Shown: piece by piece, positions 329 to 22,053 of the stretch
Layout: the number at the start of each line of letters is the position of its first letter
Numbering within the stretch: position 1 is the stretch's first letter
DNA from: a virus
Virus record (IMG/VR): IMGVR_UViG_3300045008_000039
Span: 1 to 22,577 of that record
Strand: one strand, 5' to 3'
DNA: 22,577 nt
The notes under the pieces: model-generated
The model's input: only the letters and a program-made list of their open reading frames with translations
Told to the model about the DNA's origin: nothing
Databases searched by the model: none
Translations under genes and position numbers: made by a program

Positions 329-1216
329 TTAGAGCCAACCCATAGACTGCATTTGCAAAACAGCTTGCATCCCGTATTCCTCGCCAAGCTCCCATAAGCC
401 GCGCTTTTTGAAGTCTAGAAAATTTCCTGTATCCTCGTTTGGGAAGACGTGGATAAAGTCCACACCATCGTGTGCTTGGGCGGCATTCCAGACTAGATCC
501 TCATTCGCTTGCGTAATGTGTTGGGCGACTGTCAGGACGTTTTTAAGTCCCGTCGTCTGTGGCGGATTAGGCGTTGATTTTTCAACGCGACGAATTTTAA
601 CGCCATCAAATACGCCTTCAGGTCCGCAATAGATAATCAAAACGTGCGTTGCCCCTAGCTCAATAGCGGTATCGATCGGCGCATTGTCACCGGCCCCACC
701 ATCACCATAACCTAGATGAGCCGGGAACACACCCTCAATAGCAGATGTACACAGTGCCATGTCTTGCAGTCGACCTTGCAACGTATGCACGCATCCACTG
801 CCGTAATGGTATGCGCGCACGGCTATCTGCTTGCCCTTCAAATCGTCTGTATATGATTCACCCAACGCCTCATTAACTCGCTTCCGTAGTGGCGCGTTAT
901 CGAATGCCGCTGGACCTGTGAAAAAGTCTTTAGCGATGCCTAGATAGGTAAACGCGTTTCGCCACCACGCCCCACTAATATCTGGCGTGAAAACATCGCT
1001 ATTTTTTGTGATTTTCGCCCATTGCGTTTTAAGCTCTTCGGCACCATGGCCCATAAGCAAGCCCTTAGCCAATATGCACGCATTCAAGCCACCAACGGAC
1101 GTGCCGACGATAATCTCGGCACGGTCAATAATGCCAGCGTGCCACAGTGAGTAAAGCGCCCCGGCCTGAAACTCTCCACACGCTCCACCACCTACGAGGA
1201 CCAATCCTAGCTTCAT
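329..1216 (-). CDS. Patatin-like phospholipase
   Basis: A 295-residue serine lipase of the patatin family, which hydrolyses acyl ester bonds of membrane phospholipids with a Ser-Asp dyad. The N-terminus has the Gly-rich oxyanion loop (GGGACG, residues 9-14) followed by QAGAL. The nucleophile elbow GTSVG is at residues 38-42, with Ser40. The DGG motif carrying the catalytic Asp is near residue 172. No signal peptide or membrane segment is visible, so the protein starts out cytoplasmic. The start ATG overlaps the stop of the two-span membrane protein gene (ATGA), so the two are translationally coupled, and a terminator follows. Position beside the endolysin suggests a role in lysis or envelope damage. 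A superinfection-exclusion effector is the main alternative. Family assignment is firm; the role is inferred. Confidence 0.9.
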   Translation of the reverse strand: MKLGLVLVGGGACGEFQAGALYSLWHAGIIDRAEIIVGTSVGGLNACILAKGLLMGHGAEELKTQWAKITKNSDVFTPDISGAWWRNAFTYLGIAKDFFTGPAAFDNAPLRKRVNEALGESYTDDLKGKQIAVRAYHYGSGCVHTLQGRLQDMALCTSAIEGVFPAHLGYGDGGAGDNAPIDTAIELGATHVLIIYCGPEGVFDGVKIRRVEKSTPNPPQTTGLKNVLTVAQHITQANEDLVWNAAQAHDGVDFIHVFPNEDTGNFLDFKKRGLWELGEEYGMQAVLQMQSMGWL

Positions 1217-5299: not shown

Positions 5300-6361
5300 T
5301 TATAATACGAGAGACGCAACTGCACCCGCAGTGCTCCCAAGCGTGCTTAGGCCTGTACGATACCTATCAAGTTGGTCTAAATACTTCTGCTGTCTGTTGT
5401 ATTCGTCGGCATAAAACTGGTTTTTCTTATCCTGGTATTGAAGCCCAGCAATATAAGAGGCCAAGTCTTGATTTGCTGTATTTGAAGCGCTTAAAGCATC
5501 TGAAAGCCCCATAGAAGCAGAACCACTATTCAACGTCCCGCGTCCTTGGTTAGACGCAACAATATCATTTTGTTGACGTGATAAATTTTGAGCAATCTTC
5601 GTTCGTAAATCGCGCTCAGTCTCAGAGTAGTCTTTTGACGTGTATTTGTCTTCGTCAAAACTGCCCGGCGTGTACTCTCCCGGAGGATTGAAAGCATCAT
5701 CCATAGTTTTTTGCCACCCATAGGTAGGCTCGAAAATGTTAGCGAAATTTAAAGGTGCTGTATTTTGCAGCCCTTTTTCACCACCCGCTCCCCATGGAGT
5801 TTGTTTGCCTGTAAATAATGCATCATCAAAGCCGCCTTGAACTTTATCATATAATTCATTCCACTTTTTACCAAAATCGCCGCCAAGGCTTTGGTTGAAG
5901 TTTGGCAAAGTACCGGGAATATTTTTCAGCCCTTTTTCACCACCCGCTCCCCAAGGCGTACCCGCACCTGTAAATAATGCGTCATCAACGCCGCCTTGAA
6001 TTCTATCGTATAATTCATTCCACTTTTTACCCAATTCACCACCAAGGCTTTGGTTGAAGTTTGGCATAAATCCGGGAACATTTTCGAAACCCTTTTTTCC
6101 ACCAGGTCCCCAAGGCGTACCCTCACCTGTACGAATGGCATTAAGTAAATTTAACTCGAAATTAGGCTTGGTGAACGAATCTGCCCAACCGCCAGTAGCA
6201 TTATGCAGTGCATCGCTACCTGACCAAGTATTGAAAAAGTTTCCGGAATCACCTAAAGGCTTATCCCAAGATACGCCTTTAAACGGGTCATCCCAAGATG
6301 TGCCTTTAAACGGGTTTAGAGAAGGTACAACGTTATTAAGCTGTTCAGATAGGAAGCTCAT
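5300..6361 (-). CDS. Repeat-containing putative ejection protein (353 aa)
   Basis: 353 residues from ATG 6361 (TAGAGGTG upstream). Residues 79-203 hold two full copies and one partial copy of a 53-residue repeat, each starting with TPWG-x-GG-x-KG. The full copies continue with NFNQSLGG, GKKWNELYD and QGG-x-DDALFTG. The N-terminus has a shorter duplication (PFKGTSWDD / PFKGVSWDK). The C-terminal 120 residues are Gln/Asn/Tyr-rich and helical, ending in a short hydrophobic tail (GAVASLVL). No enzymatic motif is seen. The neighbours suggest an internal virion protein; the Trp-Gly-rich repeats could mediate self-assembly. Confidence 0.58.
   Translation of the reverse strand: MSFLSEQLNNVVPSLNPFKGTSWDDPFKGVSWDKPLGDSGNFFNTWSGSDALHNATGGWADSFTKPNFELNLLNAIRTGEGTPWGPGGKKGFENVPGFMPNFNQSLGGELGKKWNELYDRIQGGVDDALFTGAGTPWGAGGEKGLKNIPGTLPNFNQSLGGDFGKKWNELYDKVQGGFDDALFTGKQTPWGAGGEKGLQNTAPLNFANIFEPTYGWQKTMDDAFNPPGEYTPGSFDEDKYTSKDYSETERDLRTKIAQNLSRQQNDIVASNQGRGTLNSGSASMGLSDALSASNTANQDLASYIAGLQYQDKKNQFYADEYNRQQKYLDQLDRYRTGLSTLGSTAGAVASLVL
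5753..6127 (-). repeat. 159-bp in-frame tandem repeat (2 full copies and 1 partial)
   Basis: Copies cover about 6127-5969, 5968-5810 and 5809-5753 and encode the 53-residue unit. The second and third copies share long identical stretches around the TPWGAGGEKGL codons; the first has diverged more. The reading frame is preserved throughout, so the duplication was tolerated or selected. Confidence 0.8.
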
Positions 6362-10548: not shown

Positions 10549-10646
10549 ACAAATCCAGCGCCAGCGGTTAAGCTAACGTGCATTCCTGCAGCGTTACCCT
10601 GCACACACAACAATATCAGGGCGCTCACTAGCAGTATTTTCTTCAT
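10515..10646 (-). CDS. Small secreted protein with a signal peptide (43 aa)
   Basis: Starts at ATG 10646 inside the 3' end of the GT4 gene, in another frame, with GGA five bases upstream. The first 20 residues are a clear signal sequence: two Lys, then ILLVSALILLCV, then QGNAAG with an AxA-like cleavage site. The mature part would be only about 23 residues and ends at TAG 10515-10517. The same frame stays open past this codon for 27 more codons to TAA 10431-10433, which lies directly beside the ribosome site of the adaptor gene. That spacing suggests the original gene had about 71 residues. The cysteine in the hydrophobic core does not make a standard lipobox. Function is unknown. Confidence 0.5.
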   Translation of the reverse strand: MKKILLVSALILLCVQGNAAGMHVSLTAGAGFVPKLIVTPTII

Positions 10647-11916
10647 ACGTTCCATCTTTTTCGAATGCCATTAATATCTTTGCCAATCTTGCGCTAATGT
10701 CGGCTTGATTGTATCGCGCCTTAACATCGGCATAGGCCGAATCTCCCATGCGCTGGCGCAAATCAGCATCGACTACTAGCCTACGAATACACTTCAACCA
10801 TTCATCCGTTCCATTTGCCAAGAATCCATTAATCCCCGGCCTTACATCGCCGTTGTAGGGCTCCATATCCTGATAAACGCCCGGAATATGCAGGGCCGAA
10901 AACTCAAGATACTTGATATTGCTCTTCGCCCTGTTAAATTCCGAGTCACACAGAGGCGCTAAACCAATGTCAACACGCTTATCGCGTAGCCAGTCGAAAT
11001 AATCATCAATTTCAACACCAGCGAACACTTCCACTTGGGGATGCTCGCGTAATCCAAGCTTGTCGAAGAAATCAGGAAACAAAAGCACCTTTTCCTGCTC
11101 ATCCATGCTTGACCCGGCCGCCCCAGTGGCACGGTACCAAGTGTTGTAGCACAAACGAAGGTTCGGGAATTCATCCAGTAACGCCTTCAGCGCCTTTGCA
11201 ATCGTTTTCCAGTCCCGGTAGTGCGAATTAGATCCAAATAGGCCAAGGCGAATAAGACCGTCCTTCTTAGGCTCCAATAATACCGGAAAATTATCAAAAT
11301 CAATCCCGTTCGGAATCACGACTGTATTGGGGTTGTATGCGCAATACTTGCGGCGCATGACCTCCGTACTGACAGTCACCAGATGGGCCTTGGACAATTC
11401 ATCCAGCACAATTTCGCAAGGATGCCGCCTTACTTGCACCATGCACAAGCGGCCTGTCTTAGGATGCCGTTCTAGGCGTGCTCCATACTGAGTCGCCAGT
11501 GCTGGCCACTTCTCGTCTCCCTCTTCATCCTCTGGGATCTCTGCCCACACGTCCTTCCCGTTGTCCTCGTTAAACCAAAACTTATAGTTCGGGTTATCCG
11601 TTGGAAGGCTCAAAATATCGTCATCAATATCAATGACTAGCTTTTTCACTTGCGCCGTAGCATATAGCCGGGCGCAATCCTCTTCGGACGCTTTAAACGT
11701 GGTAAAAATAACGTCATTGTTCTCGATTATTGACGCATGGCTCCCGATACCGGGAACGTTGCAAGGGCCGGTCAATCCTTCCCACTTCACGCGCTCAGAA
11801 CGCAAAGGAAGCCCCTTAACAGTGAATCCCGGAAGCTTCGCTAAATACTTCATCGGTTGCCATACGCGATACATGGCAACGCCGTTAAAGCCAGAATGGA
11901 AGGCAAAAATTTTCAT
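10594..11916 (-). CDS. GT4-type glycosyltransferase
   Basis: A 440-residue cytoplasmic enzyme with the two Rossmann domains of GT-B glycosyltransferases. The N-terminal domain begins MKIFAFHSGFNGVAMYR, the usual start followed by a Gly-rich acceptor-side loop. The linker carries VVIPNGIDFDNF (about 198-210), and the sugar-nucleotide domain starts IRLGLFGSNSHYRDW. Near residues 335-385 are the donor-site features EFSALHIPG, then GINGFLANG, then the helix of DLRQRMGDSAYADVKARY. GT4 enzymes move a sugar from a nucleotide sugar to an acceptor with retention of configuration. The donor and acceptor are unknown. Its ATGA coupling to the preceding gene puts it in the head operon, so a virion protein or a host glycan are both possible targets. 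Confidence 0.88.
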   Translation of the reverse strand: MKIFAFHSGFNGVAMYRVWQPMKYLAKLPGFTVKGLPLRSERVKWEGLTGPCNVPGIGSHASIIENNDVIFTTFKASEEDCARLYATAQVKKLVIDIDDDILSLPTDNPNYKFWFNEDNGKDVWAEIPEDEEGDEKWPALATQYGARLERHPKTGRLCMVQVRRHPCEIVLDELSKAHLVTVSTEVMRRKYCAYNPNTVVIPNGIDFDNFPVLLEPKKDGLIRLGLFGSNSHYRDWKTIAKALKALLDEFPNLRLCYNTWYRATGAAGSSMDEQEKVLLFPDFFDKLGLREHPQVEVFAGVEIDDYFDWLRDKRVDIGLAPLCDSEFNRAKSNIKYLEFSALHIPGVYQDMEPYNGDVRPGINGFLANGTDEWLKCIRRLVVDADLRQRMGDSAYADVKARYNQADISARLAKILMAFEKDGTYEENTASERPDIVVCAG

Positions 11917-16701: not shown

Positions 16702-16863
16702 CTAAGCTAACTTTATTTGGCTGGTTATTTCAGCGTGTACAGCCTTCCCGTCCTGTATTTTTATGACTAGGACGGAATACCTCGCCTTCTTCGCGTCCCG
16801 AAACAATCTTAGAACATTTTCTTCTTCTTGTGTGAGGCTAACTATTTTGTCGGCGTTAGTCAA
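16702..16863 (-). CDS. DUF2292/YezD-like small protein (53 aa)
   Basis: 53 residues starting at TTG 16863, which overlaps the TerL stop (TTGA) and has a perfect GGAGG seven bases upstream. An N-terminal helix (TQEEENVLRLFRDAKKA) is followed by two strands, YSVLVIKIQDGKAVHAEIT, ending in KLA. This helix plus V-x-I-x-x-QDGK-hairpin shape is that of small DUF2292 (YezD-like) proteins. Their biochemical role is not known. The similarity is recognised by eye and should be treated as tentative, but the ribosome site and coding pattern make a real gene very likely. Confidence 0.7.
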   Translation of the reverse strand: MTNADKIVSLTQEEENVLRLFRDAKKARYSVLVIKIQDGKAVHAEITSQIKLA

Positions 16864-18374
16864 TAGTATTCCTCCGCGAAGTAATCCCCGTTGCGCGGGG
16901 CTGAATGCTCAAAGGCCGTCTTGGCTAAATAGCGTTCCCGCTCTGCCCCGTGGTCCTCTGGCGTTTGAGCTGCCACAATCCAAGGTGCCATCTGCTTACC
17001 TATCGCTACTACGGCATACCTGATAGCGTCTGCCGCGTGGTCATTGAATTTTCGTGGCGCTTCTCTCGCGTTCCTTTCTGCACCTTCTCGCATTTCTTCC
17101 CATTGATACGTTTGCAGCTCGTTTATTAAATTGATGCATTGGGGCCGCACGATAAATAGTTTCGGGCTTCCTTTCTCGCCGCGCTTTGGATGCCAATTGG
17201 GGAACGGACGTTCAGGGTCGGGCGTCAAGTATTCTTTGACCATGTTAATTCCGAATTGAACATCCTTGTCCGGATTAAGACCAAATATCCCTAGCTCGTT
17301 GTACTGGTCCCAAATCGTTTTCCCGTCGCCGTCGTAATTCCCCTTCACGGCATAGTCTAGATAGACTAAAAACTTTTCGTTGTTCCCCACTGGCAGCTTA
17401 TCGCTACCAGCTAAAAACTTAAACGCTTCGGCGTGTTCTTTCACTGTCATATGGTCACGGTAATGCTCGCGATAGAAAACTATATTACCCATTTCGTCAA
17501 CGGCTCCAAACTCAATAGCCGTTGGGTTCCTGTACCCGTGGTCCCATCCGACAATGCGCGGCCAATGATCGGGAATCGTTAGCGCGCTGATTCCGTGGAC
17601 GTTTTCGATGTCGAACTCAGGATATACCATGCCGCCGAACGTATCCCACGAACCATTGATATACCTGTTATATAGTTCGGTGGAATACGACCGCTTAAGG
17701 TCATCCATCCACCCGTCGGCGTGATATTTTTTGTTTTCCGTTGTCGGGATATCGTAGAACTTGTTTGTCCCTGCCTTGTTATAAATGAATTCCTGCTTCA
17801 CCCAATTTGGCGCAGGGTTCATTTCGCAAATCAATTGATTGTATGGTGTTGGAATATACCCTAATGACCTCATCAATTGCGCGCCATAACGTTGTTTGTA
17901 CTCCGCTATTGATTGAGGGTTCCACTGTCTACAACGGCCCTTCAGCTCAAGGAAAAATTCGTGCGCTACTTCCTCGGCCTGTGAGATGCCAACAAATGCA
18001 ACATTAGGGCCGCGTACCTTTCGGACGTCATCGAACGTGACAAACCAAAGCTTTGAACCGTTTGCATACGATACTGTCATATCCGCGAACTTACTTATCA
18101 CAGGTCCATTCCAGCTCCCGCCATTGCGCCGCAATGCGATCGCTTCGAACGATGGAATAATAGACTTTTCGAGTGCCGTATATGTTTTACGTCCGATAAT
18201 TGCCATGCTTCCGGCGTACACTTCAAGGTTCAGATGTATCTTCGCCAACATGGCGTATGACTTGCCAGAATTGAATCCGCCGCCTGCTCCGATGCACTTA
18301 TTCACGCGGTCAAAGAAAAAAGCTCGCTGTTGCGGCTTGTCCGTGAAATCGAGAATAGATGATATACTACTCAT
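16860..18374 (-). CDS. terL: Terminase large subunit
   Basis: 504 residues: the ATPase-nuclease motor that packages DNA. ATG 18374 is chosen because it overlaps the preceding stop as ATGA; a GTG nine codons earlier is possible. The adenine-motif-like KPQQRAF (13-19) precedes the Walker A loop GGGFNSGKS (31-39). A Walker B-like strand VAFVGISQAEEV follows at about 125-135 with the acidic pair. The C-terminal RNase H-like nuclease shows VGWDHG (about 274), VYLDYAVKG (about 340) and NDHAADAIRYA (about 443), giving the metal-binding Asp set. The Walker B strand has SQ where many relatives have DE, but AEE supplies acidic residues. Confidence is high. Confidence 0.93.
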   Translation of the reverse strand: MSSISSILDFTDKPQQRAFFFDRVNKCIGAGGGFNSGKSYAMLAKIHLNLEVYAGSMAIIGRKTYTALEKSIIPSFEAIALRRNGGSWNGPVISKFADMTVSYANGSKLWFVTFDDVRKVRGPNVAFVGISQAEEVAHEFFLELKGRCRQWNPQSIAEYKQRYGAQLMRSLGYIPTPYNQLICEMNPAPNWVKQEFIYNKAGTNKFYDIPTTENKKYHADGWMDDLKRSYSTELYNRYINGSWDTFGGMVYPEFDIENVHGISALTIPDHWPRIVGWDHGYRNPTAIEFGAVDEMGNIVFYREHYRDHMTVKEHAEAFKFLAGSDKLPVGNNEKFLVYLDYAVKGNYDGDGKTIWDQYNELGIFGLNPDKDVQFGINMVKEYLTPDPERPFPNWHPKRGEKGSPKLFIVRPQCINLINELQTYQWEEMREGAERNAREAPRKFNDHAADAIRYAVVAIGKQMAPWIVAAQTPEDHGAERERYLAKTAFEHSAPRNGDYFAEEYY

Positions 18375-18952
18375 CCGATGCGGGTTGCCTTCACTTCCCA
18401 CGCGAAATTGTTTCCCTGCTTCACGAATTTTACGCCCTCGTTATGCAATTGGTACGGCACCTCACGGAAAAATAAATGCGCGTTTCCAGCGTTCCAGTCA
18501 GCATTCATCAACATCCGTACATCCGCGCCAATTCCGTGGGGCGGTAGCTTTGCGATTGCGTCCTTCAGCATATTCAAGTGTTCTGTCATCACATCTGCAG
18601 GCTCTGGCTCTTTTGTGGCCTCTGCTTGGGCGCGCAGTTGCTCAGCGTTTAGTTCCATCGACTTAAACGGGTCAAAAGGTAAATCGTGATTATCACTCAT
18701 ATCATATAGCTTAGGCGGTTCTTGCCTTTCACCCTCTGCCACTTTATCGACACTGACACGGGCGGCCCTTGAAGCTGGCCCACCTGCAATATCTGCACAC
18801 TTCGCCATAACGCTGTCCACGATTCCAATGACGCTCTTTAACCGCTCGTCGTCGCTGAAATCACGCTTGCGCCACCGCTCCGCAATCACGCGCACAGAAT
18901 CGTTGAACTTCTTACTGTCCAGTAGCTCCGATGCAATCTGTTTGGCGTCCAT
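18371..18952 (-). CDS. Hypothetical protein upstream of TerL (193 aa)
   Basis: 193 residues, coupled to its neighbours on both sides: TAATG with the GT-C gene and ATGA with TerL. The N-terminus is helical and charged (AERWRKRDFSDDERLKSVIG), the middle (about 75-115) is acidic and Pro-rich, and the C-terminal 70 residues look globular: HLNMLKDAIAKL, then NAHLFFREVPYQLHNEGVK. No family is recognised. Tight coupling to TerL suggests a packaging-related role or a second small-subunit-like protein, but there is no motif to support this. Confidence 0.6.
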   Translation of the reverse strand: MDAKQIASELLDSKKFNDSVRVIAERWRKRDFSDDERLKSVIGIVDSVMAKCADIAGGPASRAARVSVDKVAEGERQEPPKLYDMSDNHDLPFDPFKSMELNAEQLRAQAEATKEPEPADVMTEHLNMLKDAIAKLPPHGIGADVRMLMNADWNAGNAHLFFREVPYQLHNEGVKFVKQGNNFAWEVKATRIG

Positions 18953-20217
18953 TAGTTCCGCTCCATTAGTGTGTGCGCTCCAGACGTCGACACGAACGCT
19001 GGACGATAGTTTGAGTAATCGAATTGCTTGGCGCTATACGGGCAATGCACGATATAGCGTGGTGCCTCGCCTTCGGGAAGGCCCGGTAGTTCTGGAATCT
19101 CAACGCGCCACGCTTTGCGGTGAGTGTTCAGATAGATTTGATTTTCCATCCCATTAACCCATATCACTTCGTCCTCGCTTGTGTTTTCCATGATCATTTT
19201 TTCGATTTTTTTGCAATCGGCCATCATATCACCGTAGTTCCCTCCACCACCAGCAAAAGTGAAGCGGTAGACTAATTGCGGCTTCCACCAACATATTCCG
19301 TCACGGACTGCCCACACCAAAGCTAGGCCTAGGATGGTTGCAACGCTTGGGCGCGCAGATATAGCCAAAGGGAAAGACAACGCTATGAAGTGGTGAGGCA
19401 CTATCTGCTTGCTCCACACCATCGCGGCCAGCATCACGGCGGCAACAAGCATCCATTTGTTTGTGAGGTCGCATCCAGCGACAATTGGCGCGAGCAGCGT
19501 AAGGCACGGCACAAGCAGGGTAGATGCAGATAGGATGTTCTTTTTTATTGTGCGCGTTTTCCCGAACGCCGCCGGAACCGCAATTAGCCATACGTAGGCT
19601 TCGATGATTCTTTTTGTCGTAATGATATACCCTAGAATCGCAACACTCGGTGCCACCAACGCGGCCAAAACAAGTCCGTCTATGTTGCCACCTAATCCGC
19701 ACGCCCACGCAGCTGGGAGGACGATGAAAACATTCTTTTGATTCGCCCACGGCAATACCCCGATAAATAATGCAGACACAGCATAGCTACCCTTAGCTCC
19801 AGCTAATGCGGCCATGGCTAATATCGCCGTCGTCAGCCACTCAGTGTTAGCCATATGCGTCCACAGTGTCGGGCTTGCAAGCATCACGGCCAGCAGTACA
19901 GCCCCAAATGGATTGATGACCGACAACGCCACACAGGCCACCATTGCGCCAAACATAGGTAGGACGCGCACACGTTCACCAATGCCAAAAATCTTATTGC
20001 GTGGCATCACTAGTTTGTACAACCAATGAATTAATGGCGGCTTAATGTCACAGTGCCCGTCATCCAGCCAACGTGTCCTGAAAAATGCAGGATAAGCATA
20101 CGGCGTGAAGTCTCTATCTTGTGGCGTTGCTGCAAAGCGAATGTACCACAGCGCAATAATGCTATTCGCCGCCATCATCGTCATCAATTGCGTCATTAGT
20201 CCCGTTGTCATTTGCAT
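18952..20217 (-). CDS. Membrane GT-C glycosyltransferase (ArnT/PMT-like)
   Basis: 421 residues with eight or more hydrophobic spans between about 70 and 320 and a soluble C-terminal domain from about 335. The first outer loop has the GT-C signature: DRDFTPYAY (about 34-42, a candidate catalytic Asp) and DIKPPLIHWLY (57-67), the KPPL-x-x-W motif of ArnT/PMT-like lipid-sugar-dependent transferases. The C-terminal EDEVIWVNGMENQIYLNTHR resembles the usual soluble-domain motif of that superfamily. These enzymes move a sugar from a polyprenyl-phosphate carrier to an acceptor on the outer face of the inner membrane. The 5' end overlaps the preceding gene by 56 bases; alternative ATGs at 20196, 20184 and 20175 are possible. 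It is an odd cargo for a packaging operon. LPS or O-antigen modification is the likeliest role, by inference. Confidence 0.82.
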   Translation of the reverse strand: MQMTTGLMTQLMTMMAANSIIALWYIRFAATPQDRDFTPYAYPAFFRTRWLDDGHCDIKPPLIHWLYKLVMPRNKIFGIGERVRVLPMFGAMVACVALSVINPFGAVLLAVMLASPTLWTHMANTEWLTTAILAMAALAGAKGSYAVSALFIGVLPWANQKNVFIVLPAAWACGLGGNIDGLVLAALVAPSVAILGYIITTKRIIEAYVWLIAVPAAFGKTRTIKKNILSASTLLVPCLTLLAPIVAGCDLTNKWMLVAAVMLAAMVWSKQIVPHHFIALSFPLAISARPSVATILGLALVWAVRDGICWWKPQLVYRFTFAGGGGNYGDMMADCKKIEKMIMENTSEDEVIWVNGMENQIYLNTHRKAWRVEIPELPGLPEGEAPRYIVHCPYSAKQFDYSNYRPAFVSTSGAHTLMERN

Positions 20218-20671
20218 CGCCGCCGAAGAAAGATTTCAAATCGTCGTTATCTTGCTTGGCCGAAAACATGGGCGCGATAAATATTCCAGTCGCCGTAGTC
20301 GCCTCGGCCTTTACGTTGATTATGTTCGCTTGTGGGGATAGTCCCTCACGGTCTGCAATGATTTTAAGCGCCTCTAGGCTTATCCGCGCTTGATAGTCAT
20401 TGTCTTTATTGCCTGTTTCTAAAGCCTTAATAATATTACGTTGCGCGGCAAGCAAGAGCGCTGGGTTTTTACGGCGGAACTCTTTCATCTGGATGTCACG
20501 TTTTATTTCGGAAAAACGCTGGGAAAGCTTGTGTTTGTTCAGCTTGCTTAGCGCCGCGAACTCGCCCAGCGTTTTAACCTTGCCGATAGAACGTGCGTGA
20601 ACGAACTCTTCGTAGAGAGCCTCATAGTCATATTTAGGAATTGGCCCACGGCTCCCTATGCGTTTAATCAC
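20162..20671 (-). CDS. Putative terminase small subunit
   Basis: 169 residues from GTG 20671. The N-terminus GSRGPIPKYDYEALYEEFVHARSIG followed by TLGEFAALSKLNKHKLSQRF is the layout of phage DNA-binding proteins with a KYD-W/Y-E motif and a helix-turn-helix, many of which are small terminase subunits. A helical centre (about 75-110) may oligomerise, and the last 20 residues are very acidic (DAIDDDDGGE). It is two genes upstream of TerL rather than adjacent, separated by the GT-C gene and an unknown protein. It begins two bases after the stop of the 39-residue gene. A transcription factor is the alternative. Confidence 0.55.
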   Translation of the reverse strand: MIKRIGSRGPIPKYDYEALYEEFVHARSIGKVKTLGEFAALSKLNKHKLSQRFSEIKRDIQMKEFRRKNPALLLAAQRNIIKALETGNKDNDYQARISLEALKIIADREGLSPQANIINVKAEATTATGIFIAPMFSAKQDNDDLKSFFGGDANDNGTNDAIDDDDGGE

Positions 20672-21276: not shown

Positions 21277-21522
21277 TTATGCCTTCTTCAGAGTTCGGAC
21301 GTATTCGCGCCCTGTGGGAGTTATGCGGAACCCTCGTGACCGGTTAGGCATTATTTCAACGTGCCCAAATCGTTCGAGCCTCCGAAGCGAAGCGCGAATT
21401 GAGCCGGACGCAACGTGTGACTCAATAGATAATTCGCGCATCGTCGGCGGGAAAATATCCTCCGGACACAACGCGAATAAAATGGCTATCTCGTTTTGAG
21501 TTATTCCTCGGTTTCGTTTCAT
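21277..21522 (-). CDS. Small winged-helix DNA-binding protein (81 aa)
   Basis: 81 residues from ATG 21522 behind AAGGCGGGT. An extension to 21660 is possible but its codons overlap repeats and hairpins and look non-coding. The domain is a winged helix: first helix NEIAILFALC, helix-turn-helix TMRELSIESHVASGSIRASLRRLERFG, and a wing HVEIMPNRSRGFRITPTGREYV. The pattern resembles LexA N-terminal or MarR-like domains without a catalytic or ligand part. The direct repeats TAACACTT upstream (21533-21570) may be its own operator. A phage transcription regulator is the natural reading. Confidence 0.75.
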   Translation of the reverse strand: MKRNRGITQNEIAILFALCPEDIFPPTMRELSIESHVASGSIRASLRRLERFGHVEIMPNRSRGFRITPTGREYVRTLKKA

Positions 21523-21532
21523 ACCCGCCTTG

Positions 21533-21570
21533 TAACACTTATTTATTTGTTTGGCCACTAAATAACACTT
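21533..21570. promoter_or_regulatory. Direct repeats 30 bp apart before the winged-helix gene
   Basis: TAACACTT occurs at 21533-21540 and again at 21563-21570, exactly 30 bases apart, close to three helical turns. They lie just upstream of the chosen start of the winged-helix gene. Same-face repeats in front of a regulator gene are a plausible autoregulatory operator. No -10/-35 pair is obvious. Confidence 0.35.
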
Positions 21571-21601
21571 TTTTGTGTCCCTCGTGGAACATTCGGCCCT
21601 T

Positions 21602-21628
21602 GGCCGCCACGGCGCAAATAAGGCGGCC
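21602..21628. repeat. GC-rich hairpin in the intergenic gap
   Basis: GGCCGCC (21602-21608) pairs with GGCGGCC (21622-21628), with a 13-base loop. No T-run follows on the minus strand. It may stabilise or shape the leader of the winged-helix transcript. Confidence 0.4.
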
Positions 21629-21733
21629 GAAACCTTTTGTCCGTGGTTTTCTCTGGTCATGGGTATTTACTGAATTACTTTAGGCTCCACGCTCTGTTTT
21701 GGACTATCCTGTGTGGCCTATCCAGCGCATTCG

Positions 21734-21771: not shown

Positions 21772-22053
21772 TCAGTATCCGTCGCCGTCGCCGTCGCCTG
21801 CGCCGTCGCCGTTGCCGGTGCCGTAGCCTGAGCCGTCGCCGTAGCCGTAGCCGTTGCCGTAGCCGTTGCCGTAGCCGTAGCCGTTGCCGGCGCCTGCGCC
21901 GTTGCCTGAGCCGTTGCCGTCGCCGTTGCCTGAGCCGTAGCCTGCGCCGTAGCCTGCGCCGTAGCCTGCGCCTGAGCCTGCGCCGTAGCCTGCGCCGTAG
22001 CCTGAGCCTGAGCCGTAGCCGTTGCCTGAGCCGTAGCCGTTTAGTGCTTCCAC
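21772..22053 (-). CDS. Alternating (Gly-X)n protein (93 aa)
   Basis: 93 residues from GTG 22053, which has GGAG seven bases upstream, inside the end of the DUF6948-like gene. After MEALN, every second residue is Gly without a break to the C-terminus (44 Gly), and the X positions are only Tyr, Ser, Asn, Ala, Asp or Thr. Every Gly codon is GGC. This low-complexity, silk- or GRP-like composition predicts a flexible, sticky or phase-separating polymer with no globular fold. There is no signal peptide. The function is unknown. It is in the -1 frame relative to the gene upstream, but the GTG with its own site is the better explanation than frameshifting. Confidence 0.72.
   Translation of the reverse strand: MEALNGYGSGNGYGSGSGYGAGYGAGSGAGYGAGYGAGYGSGNGDGNGSGNGAGAGNGYGYGNGYGNGYGYGDGSGYGTGNGDGAGDGDGDGY
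21777..22040. repeat. Imperfect hexanucleotide repeat (GCCNNN)n
   Basis: On the plus strand GCC occurs every six bases for about 260 bases, with the alternating triplet drawn from GTA, GTT, GTC, TGA, TGC, GGC and GGT. It encodes the Gly-X protein on the minus strand. The uniform GCC spacing and local duplications point to growth by strand slippage. Confidence 0.85.

Follow-up and report, generated by a model that had tools for sequence, protein, structure and literature searches.

A gene on the minus strand of the window (i.e., the whole 22,577-nucleotide stretch of viral DNA analyzed here), at positions 18952-20217, most likely encodes a GT-C (GT-CA, ArnT-like) membrane glycosyltransferase, an assignment that draws on profile homology, predicted fold and an active-site signature. 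New here is an orphan GT-C gene inside a terminase cassette; phage GT-C genes as such are already known, and in the literature searched, the coverage of which was partial and makes this weak evidence, we found no description of one within a packaging operon. We postulate that this ArnT-like enzyme of the GT-CA class, produced late and using a host donor, alters the host envelope and limits superinfection and progeny loss. To this explanation as a whole we assign a probability of about 0.55, its least certain parts being the acceptor and the biological benefit.

The gene and its place in the packaging operon

The open reading frame comprises 421 codons (421 aa) and reads from 20217 to 18952. 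The initial annotation described a multi-span protein with DRDFTPYAY and DIKPPLIHWLY in the first outer loop and a soluble C-terminus, and both the reading frame and the alignment confirm this layout: DRDFTPYAY occupies residues 34-42 and DIKPPLIHWLY residues 57-67, both after the first hydrophobic helix, and the soluble C-terminal part covers about residues 312-421. Given that the relatives begin ca. 23 residues before the DRD motif in the alignment, translation probably starts from an in-frame ATG at 20184, 20178 or 20175, not from position 20217. Scans of IMG/VR proteins recovered three full-length relatives with 40-47% identity, and since these retain 105 invariant columns, both motifs included, the reading frame represents more than chance.

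The start of the reading frame falls inside a TerS-like (HTH) gene (20162-20671, minus strand), and so does each of the three candidate ATGs; orthologues of this upstream gene lie in the same place, and one of the four matches the PHROG terminase small subunit (7e-6). At the other end, the stop codon shares one base with the ATG of the next reading frame (TAATG, 18952), a small ORF of 193 aa (18371-18952, minus strand) that has no family match, keeps its position in all four contigs (orthologues at 21-26% identity) and overlaps the gene for the terminase large subunit TerL (16860-18401, minus strand; PHROG terminase large subunit, 3.4e-31; Pfam Terminase_3/3C). The coordinates thus bear out the claimed coupling by overlap to the TerS-like gene and to the gene preceding TerL.

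The same gene order, i.e., TerS-like gene, zero to two tiny ORFs, GT-C, small ORF, TerL and portal, all in one direction, is found in 4/4 contigs in which this interval can be seen (the fifth contig of the clade, G064, begins at TerL), which is the outcome of the survey of relatives that had been suggested. The GT-C stop overlaps the following start by 1-4 bases in each of the four, and in the relatives the tiny ORFs fill most of the gap between the TerS-like and GT-C genes. The family is rare, being confined to these four contigs: further scans of IMG/VR viral contigs returned the same three relatives and none new, a pattern scan of GTDB contigs found none, and searches of phage records (50,697) and plasmid records (72,556) were likewise negative. 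An ArnT query retrieved seven phage records, several of them at record ends or host-like, and these were left out of the analysis. Because no multi-span gene adjoins TerL in any of 36 contigs whose TerL is more distantly related (25-32%) and whose sequence extends some way upstream, the presence of a GT-C gene beside TerL is lineage-specific.

Mean pairwise identity amounts to 44.9% for the GT-C protein, 44.1% for TerL, 45.6% for the portal and 56.5% for the capsid protein; the TerS-like protein and the small ORF reach 27.4% and 23.1%, respectively. The TerL of relative G063 resembles its counterpart in G064 (40%) more than the one in the window (33%), yet the GT-C gene is retained in G063. 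Judged from these comparisons, the gene is a constrained, stable component of the clade. A recent insertion was considered and rejected, its GC content (0.509) and GC3 (0.558) being within the values of its neighbours and four diverged contigs carrying it; the same observations speak against a recombination scar in a single genome.

On the strand of the gene, from 21748 to the end of TerL, a search for sigma-70-like sites (the only promoter type covered) found none, but the region holds fewer such sites than expected by chance, which makes this negative result weak evidence. From the conserved overlaps and this result we infer, with good support, that the GT-C gene is co-transcribed with the packaging genes; the earlier statement that it is expressed with them stands to that extent.

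Assignment to the GT-C glycosyltransferases

Searches of Pfam, NCBIfam and PHROGs gave chance-level matches only, none of the four family members passes the curated cut-off of PF13231 (PMT_2), and a profile search of PDB sequences returned nothing relevant. A comparison profile of 29 PMT_2/ArnT proteins (PF13231 proteins from bacterial genomes plus E. coli ArnT) was matched by the four-member family both locally (P 2.4e-4, score 39.6, 162 columns) and globally (P 1.4e-6, 387 columns), while the control profiles, i.e., MFS, Wzx and NuoL-like proteins, scored 13.6-15.8 and gave no match. Among 200 column shuffles the top score was 37.4 against the real 39.6, this highest value stemming from a local shuffle, in which part of the signal survives. 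The signal resides in the N-terminal core (residues 29-210); the C-terminal domain has no profile match to the PMT_2 C-terminus, and AF2 predicts an alpha/beta domain there (18955-19281, minus strand), putatively periplasmic and containing the invariant IWVxGMENQIY.

The AF2 model built from the four sequences (pLDDT 69.9, pTM 0.74) has about 11 TM helices, with short helices at 34-53 and 61-70 between TM1 and TM2 in a loop of low confidence (pLDDT about 40-62). The comparison with ArnT and other GT-C folds that had been suggested was run with Foldseek against the PDB, and all matches listed with a probability above 0.5 have the GT-C fold (among them ArnT, AftB, STT3, ALG9 and ALG3). ArnT (5f15) was matched with a probability of 1.00 and an rmsd of 5.9 Å over 358 columns; E-values of 0.004-1 and TM-scores of at most 0.49 make these similarities modest, and an earlier model from three sequences gave the same outcome. 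The predicted fold hence contains a GT-C core, and the loop Asp is present throughout the family.

This residue, D36 of the DRD motif, lies together with Y40 in the first periplasmic loop (codons 29-40; 20098-20133, minus strand), invariant in 4/4, and is followed by an equally invariant GHxDIKPPLIHWxYK motif (codons 55-67; 20017-20055, minus strand) that includes K59. In hhalign D36 pairs with the Asp of ArnT PDETRYA and K59 with the Lys of ArnT EKP (two alignments). In ArnT of C. metallidurans D55/E56 are active-site residues and K85 contacts the donor phosphate (PMC7801869), and every GT-CA enzyme is stated to have, at the tip of the first juxtamembrane helix, an Asp that is essential (PMC12041299). 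By this alignment, D36 is a candidate catalytic Asp and K59 a candidate ligand of the donor phosphate, equivalent to K85. As the Arg of ArnT DETRYA gives way to a Pro that is invariant in the phage family, substrate contacts are expected to differ from those in ArnT. Taken together, the profile match with its negative controls, the AF2 and Foldseek results and the invariant D36 and K59 support the ArnT/PMT-like assignment given in the initial annotation.

The phage protein shares with ArnT/PMT_2 enzymes (GT83/GT39-type, PF13231) the first-loop Asp, the KPP(L)xxW motif, the core over residues 29-210 and a predicted periplasmic C-terminal domain, but it falls below Pfam detection, has the Arg-to-Pro exchange and a C-terminal domain unmatched in sequence, is shorter than ArnT (about 420 vs about 550 aa) and is not accompanied by an arn operon. 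With AftB, AftD, ALG9, ALG3 and STT3/PglB (GT-CA) it has the predicted overall fold in common (Foldseek probability 0.5-1.0), whereas identity is about 10-15% and acceptors and hosts are other ones. Annotation libraries miss genes such as this. Two unannotated BFVD entries, A0A514K2W1 (Nitrosopumilus spindle-shaped virus) and A0A8S5S3I0 (Siphoviridae contig), match the GT-C-like model with a Foldseek probability of 1.00, which suggests that more unrecognised viral GT-C enzymes may exist.

Proposed function and competing explanations

Lipid-phosphate sugars are the substrates of GT-C enzymes, which work at the periplasmic face of the membrane. In the mechanism that we propose the enzyme would span the inner membrane of the host, expose its active loop to the periplasm, take a single sugar from a host-supplied polyprenyl-phosphate-sugar donor, with D36 as catalytic Asp and K59 at the donor phosphate, and transfer this sugar to a glycan or glycolipid of the envelope, for example LPS. 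As a translation product of the head/packaging operon it would act late, and the surface that progeny would bind would be altered, with less superinfection and fewer progeny lost on debris as the outcome. Since neither a GtrA flippase (PF04138) nor a GT2/GtrB-type synthase (PF00535) was found at E<=1 in the five, possibly incomplete, contigs, the sugar donor is probably host-derived. Activity, host donor and late timing are what we infer for this enzyme; a role in changing LPS is plausible, at roughly even odds, and the phage host might not make LPS.

Receptor blocking has a precedent in Llp of phage T5, which is made early, not late (PMC9586334). The analogy is a functional one only, the shared proposed benefit being that virions do not re-adsorb to infected cells or debris, and Llp is an early lipoprotein, whereas late production is predicted for the phage GT-C, a membrane enzyme. 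The data suggest that envelope modification may be part of the late program of this phage. A further, tentative proposal, which we hold possible and no more than that, is that an orphan GT-C dependent on a host donor became fixed in the terminase cassette as a means of receptor modification timed with packaging and release, i.e., an exit-timed remodelling and not lysogenic conversion. A GT-C gene that keeps pace with TerL and portal in its evolution inside the packaging operon, and lacks its usual donor-making partners, would mean that envelope remodelling can belong to the productive late program; D36 and K59 offer defined mutable targets for asking whether phages modify receptors to protect their released progeny.

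Lysogenic conversion is the setting from which GT-C enzymes of phages are known; there they alter the surface of the living lysogen. It is conceivable, though we consider it unlikely, that the gene serves such conversion or superinfection immunity, i.e., that the phage is temperate and expresses the enzyme in the prophage state, perhaps from a cryptic promoter, changing the lysogen surface as Gtr does. The initial annotation saw no lysogeny genes, and the 22.6-kb window, a fragment, indeed has no integrase, but in relative G063 a tyrosine integrase gene lies upstream of this packaging cassette (L088 1212-2219, minus strand; PF00589, 1e-28), and MW202801, the closest podovirus with an annotation, has an integrase as well. 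The clade is therefore likely to have temperate members, and the contrast that had been drawn with lysogenic-conversion genes is weak. A temperate phage normally keeps the genes of its late operon silent during lysogeny, and for this reason late expression of the GT-C gene is compatible with a temperate life style. GT-C enzymes are, moreover, the hallmark of phage seroconversion (PMC11127046). Against conversion stand the place in the packaging operon kept in 4/4 contigs, the overlaps, the lack of a promoter-like site on the strand of the gene within the window, and the absence of a GtrA or GT2 (GtrB-type) partner from the five (incomplete) contigs. The likeness to the GtrABC/GT-C three-component pathways of phages, for which a Caudoviricetes example has been mentioned (PMC11127046), accordingly extends to a phage-borne GT-C and the predicted periplasmic use of a polyprenyl-phosphate sugar, but not to the partner genes, nor to the separate conversion cassette in which those pathways are encoded.

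We regard as distinctly improbable a repurposing of a GT-C-derived protein for lysis or host takeover, in which undecaprenyl-phosphate carriers would be tied up or a periplasmic or peptidoglycan target modified, with no receptor masking. The divergence of the protein, its unmatched C-terminal domain, the missing donor-making partner and the role of the operon in lytic growth would all fit, but the strictly conserved Asp and Lys of the putative active site argue for retained catalysis.

A second, apparently soluble glycosyltransferase of GT4-like type is encoded after the capsid genes (10594-11916, minus strand; phrog_7162, 1.1e-34) and occurs in all five clade contigs with 44-53% identity, and it is a possible functional partner of the GT-C enzyme. 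That the two share one glycosylation pathway, e.g., modifying a phage-coded surface component, would agree with their joint occurrence in every contig where they can be seen, but we consider this reading very unlikely. The active site of the GT-C enzyme is expected on the periplasmic side, as in other GT-C enzymes, whereas virions assemble in the cytoplasm, and the GT4-like protein differs in type from the GT2 enzymes by which lipid-phosphate sugars are made; direct glycosylation of virions by the GT-C enzyme is therefore unlikely. In podovirus MW202801 a sugar-modification gene cluster lies where the window has the GT4-like gene, after the capsid genes.

That the protein is some other multi-span membrane protein (transporter or flippase) with a superficial GT-C likeness would explain the missing curated family match and Foldseek E-values that are not below 0.001, but it is hardly credible when PMT_2 matches and the MFS, Wzx and NuoL-like controls do not, and when the confident fold matches are all GT-C.

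Other features of the window and its relatives

Further upstream on the minus strand, a glycine-tyrosine-rich ORF (21772-22053) is made of tandem repeats with 6-, 24- and 36-base periods, and in relative L002 (1-405) the corresponding position ahead of the TerS-like gene has a GY repeat fused to another domain. A small LexA-like winged-helix regulator without a peptidase domain (21277-21660, minus strand; PF01726, 2.5e-6) is encoded upstream of a VRR-NUC nuclease gene. In the tail region, a 353-aa ORF contains a 159-base tandem repeat (5761-6131; 2.3 copies, 85% match). Near the beginning of the window, a patatin-like phospholipase (329-1216, minus strand; PF01734, 8.8e-21) is located close to a peptidase M15 endolysin-like gene (1452-1904), and the two possibly belong to a lysis module.
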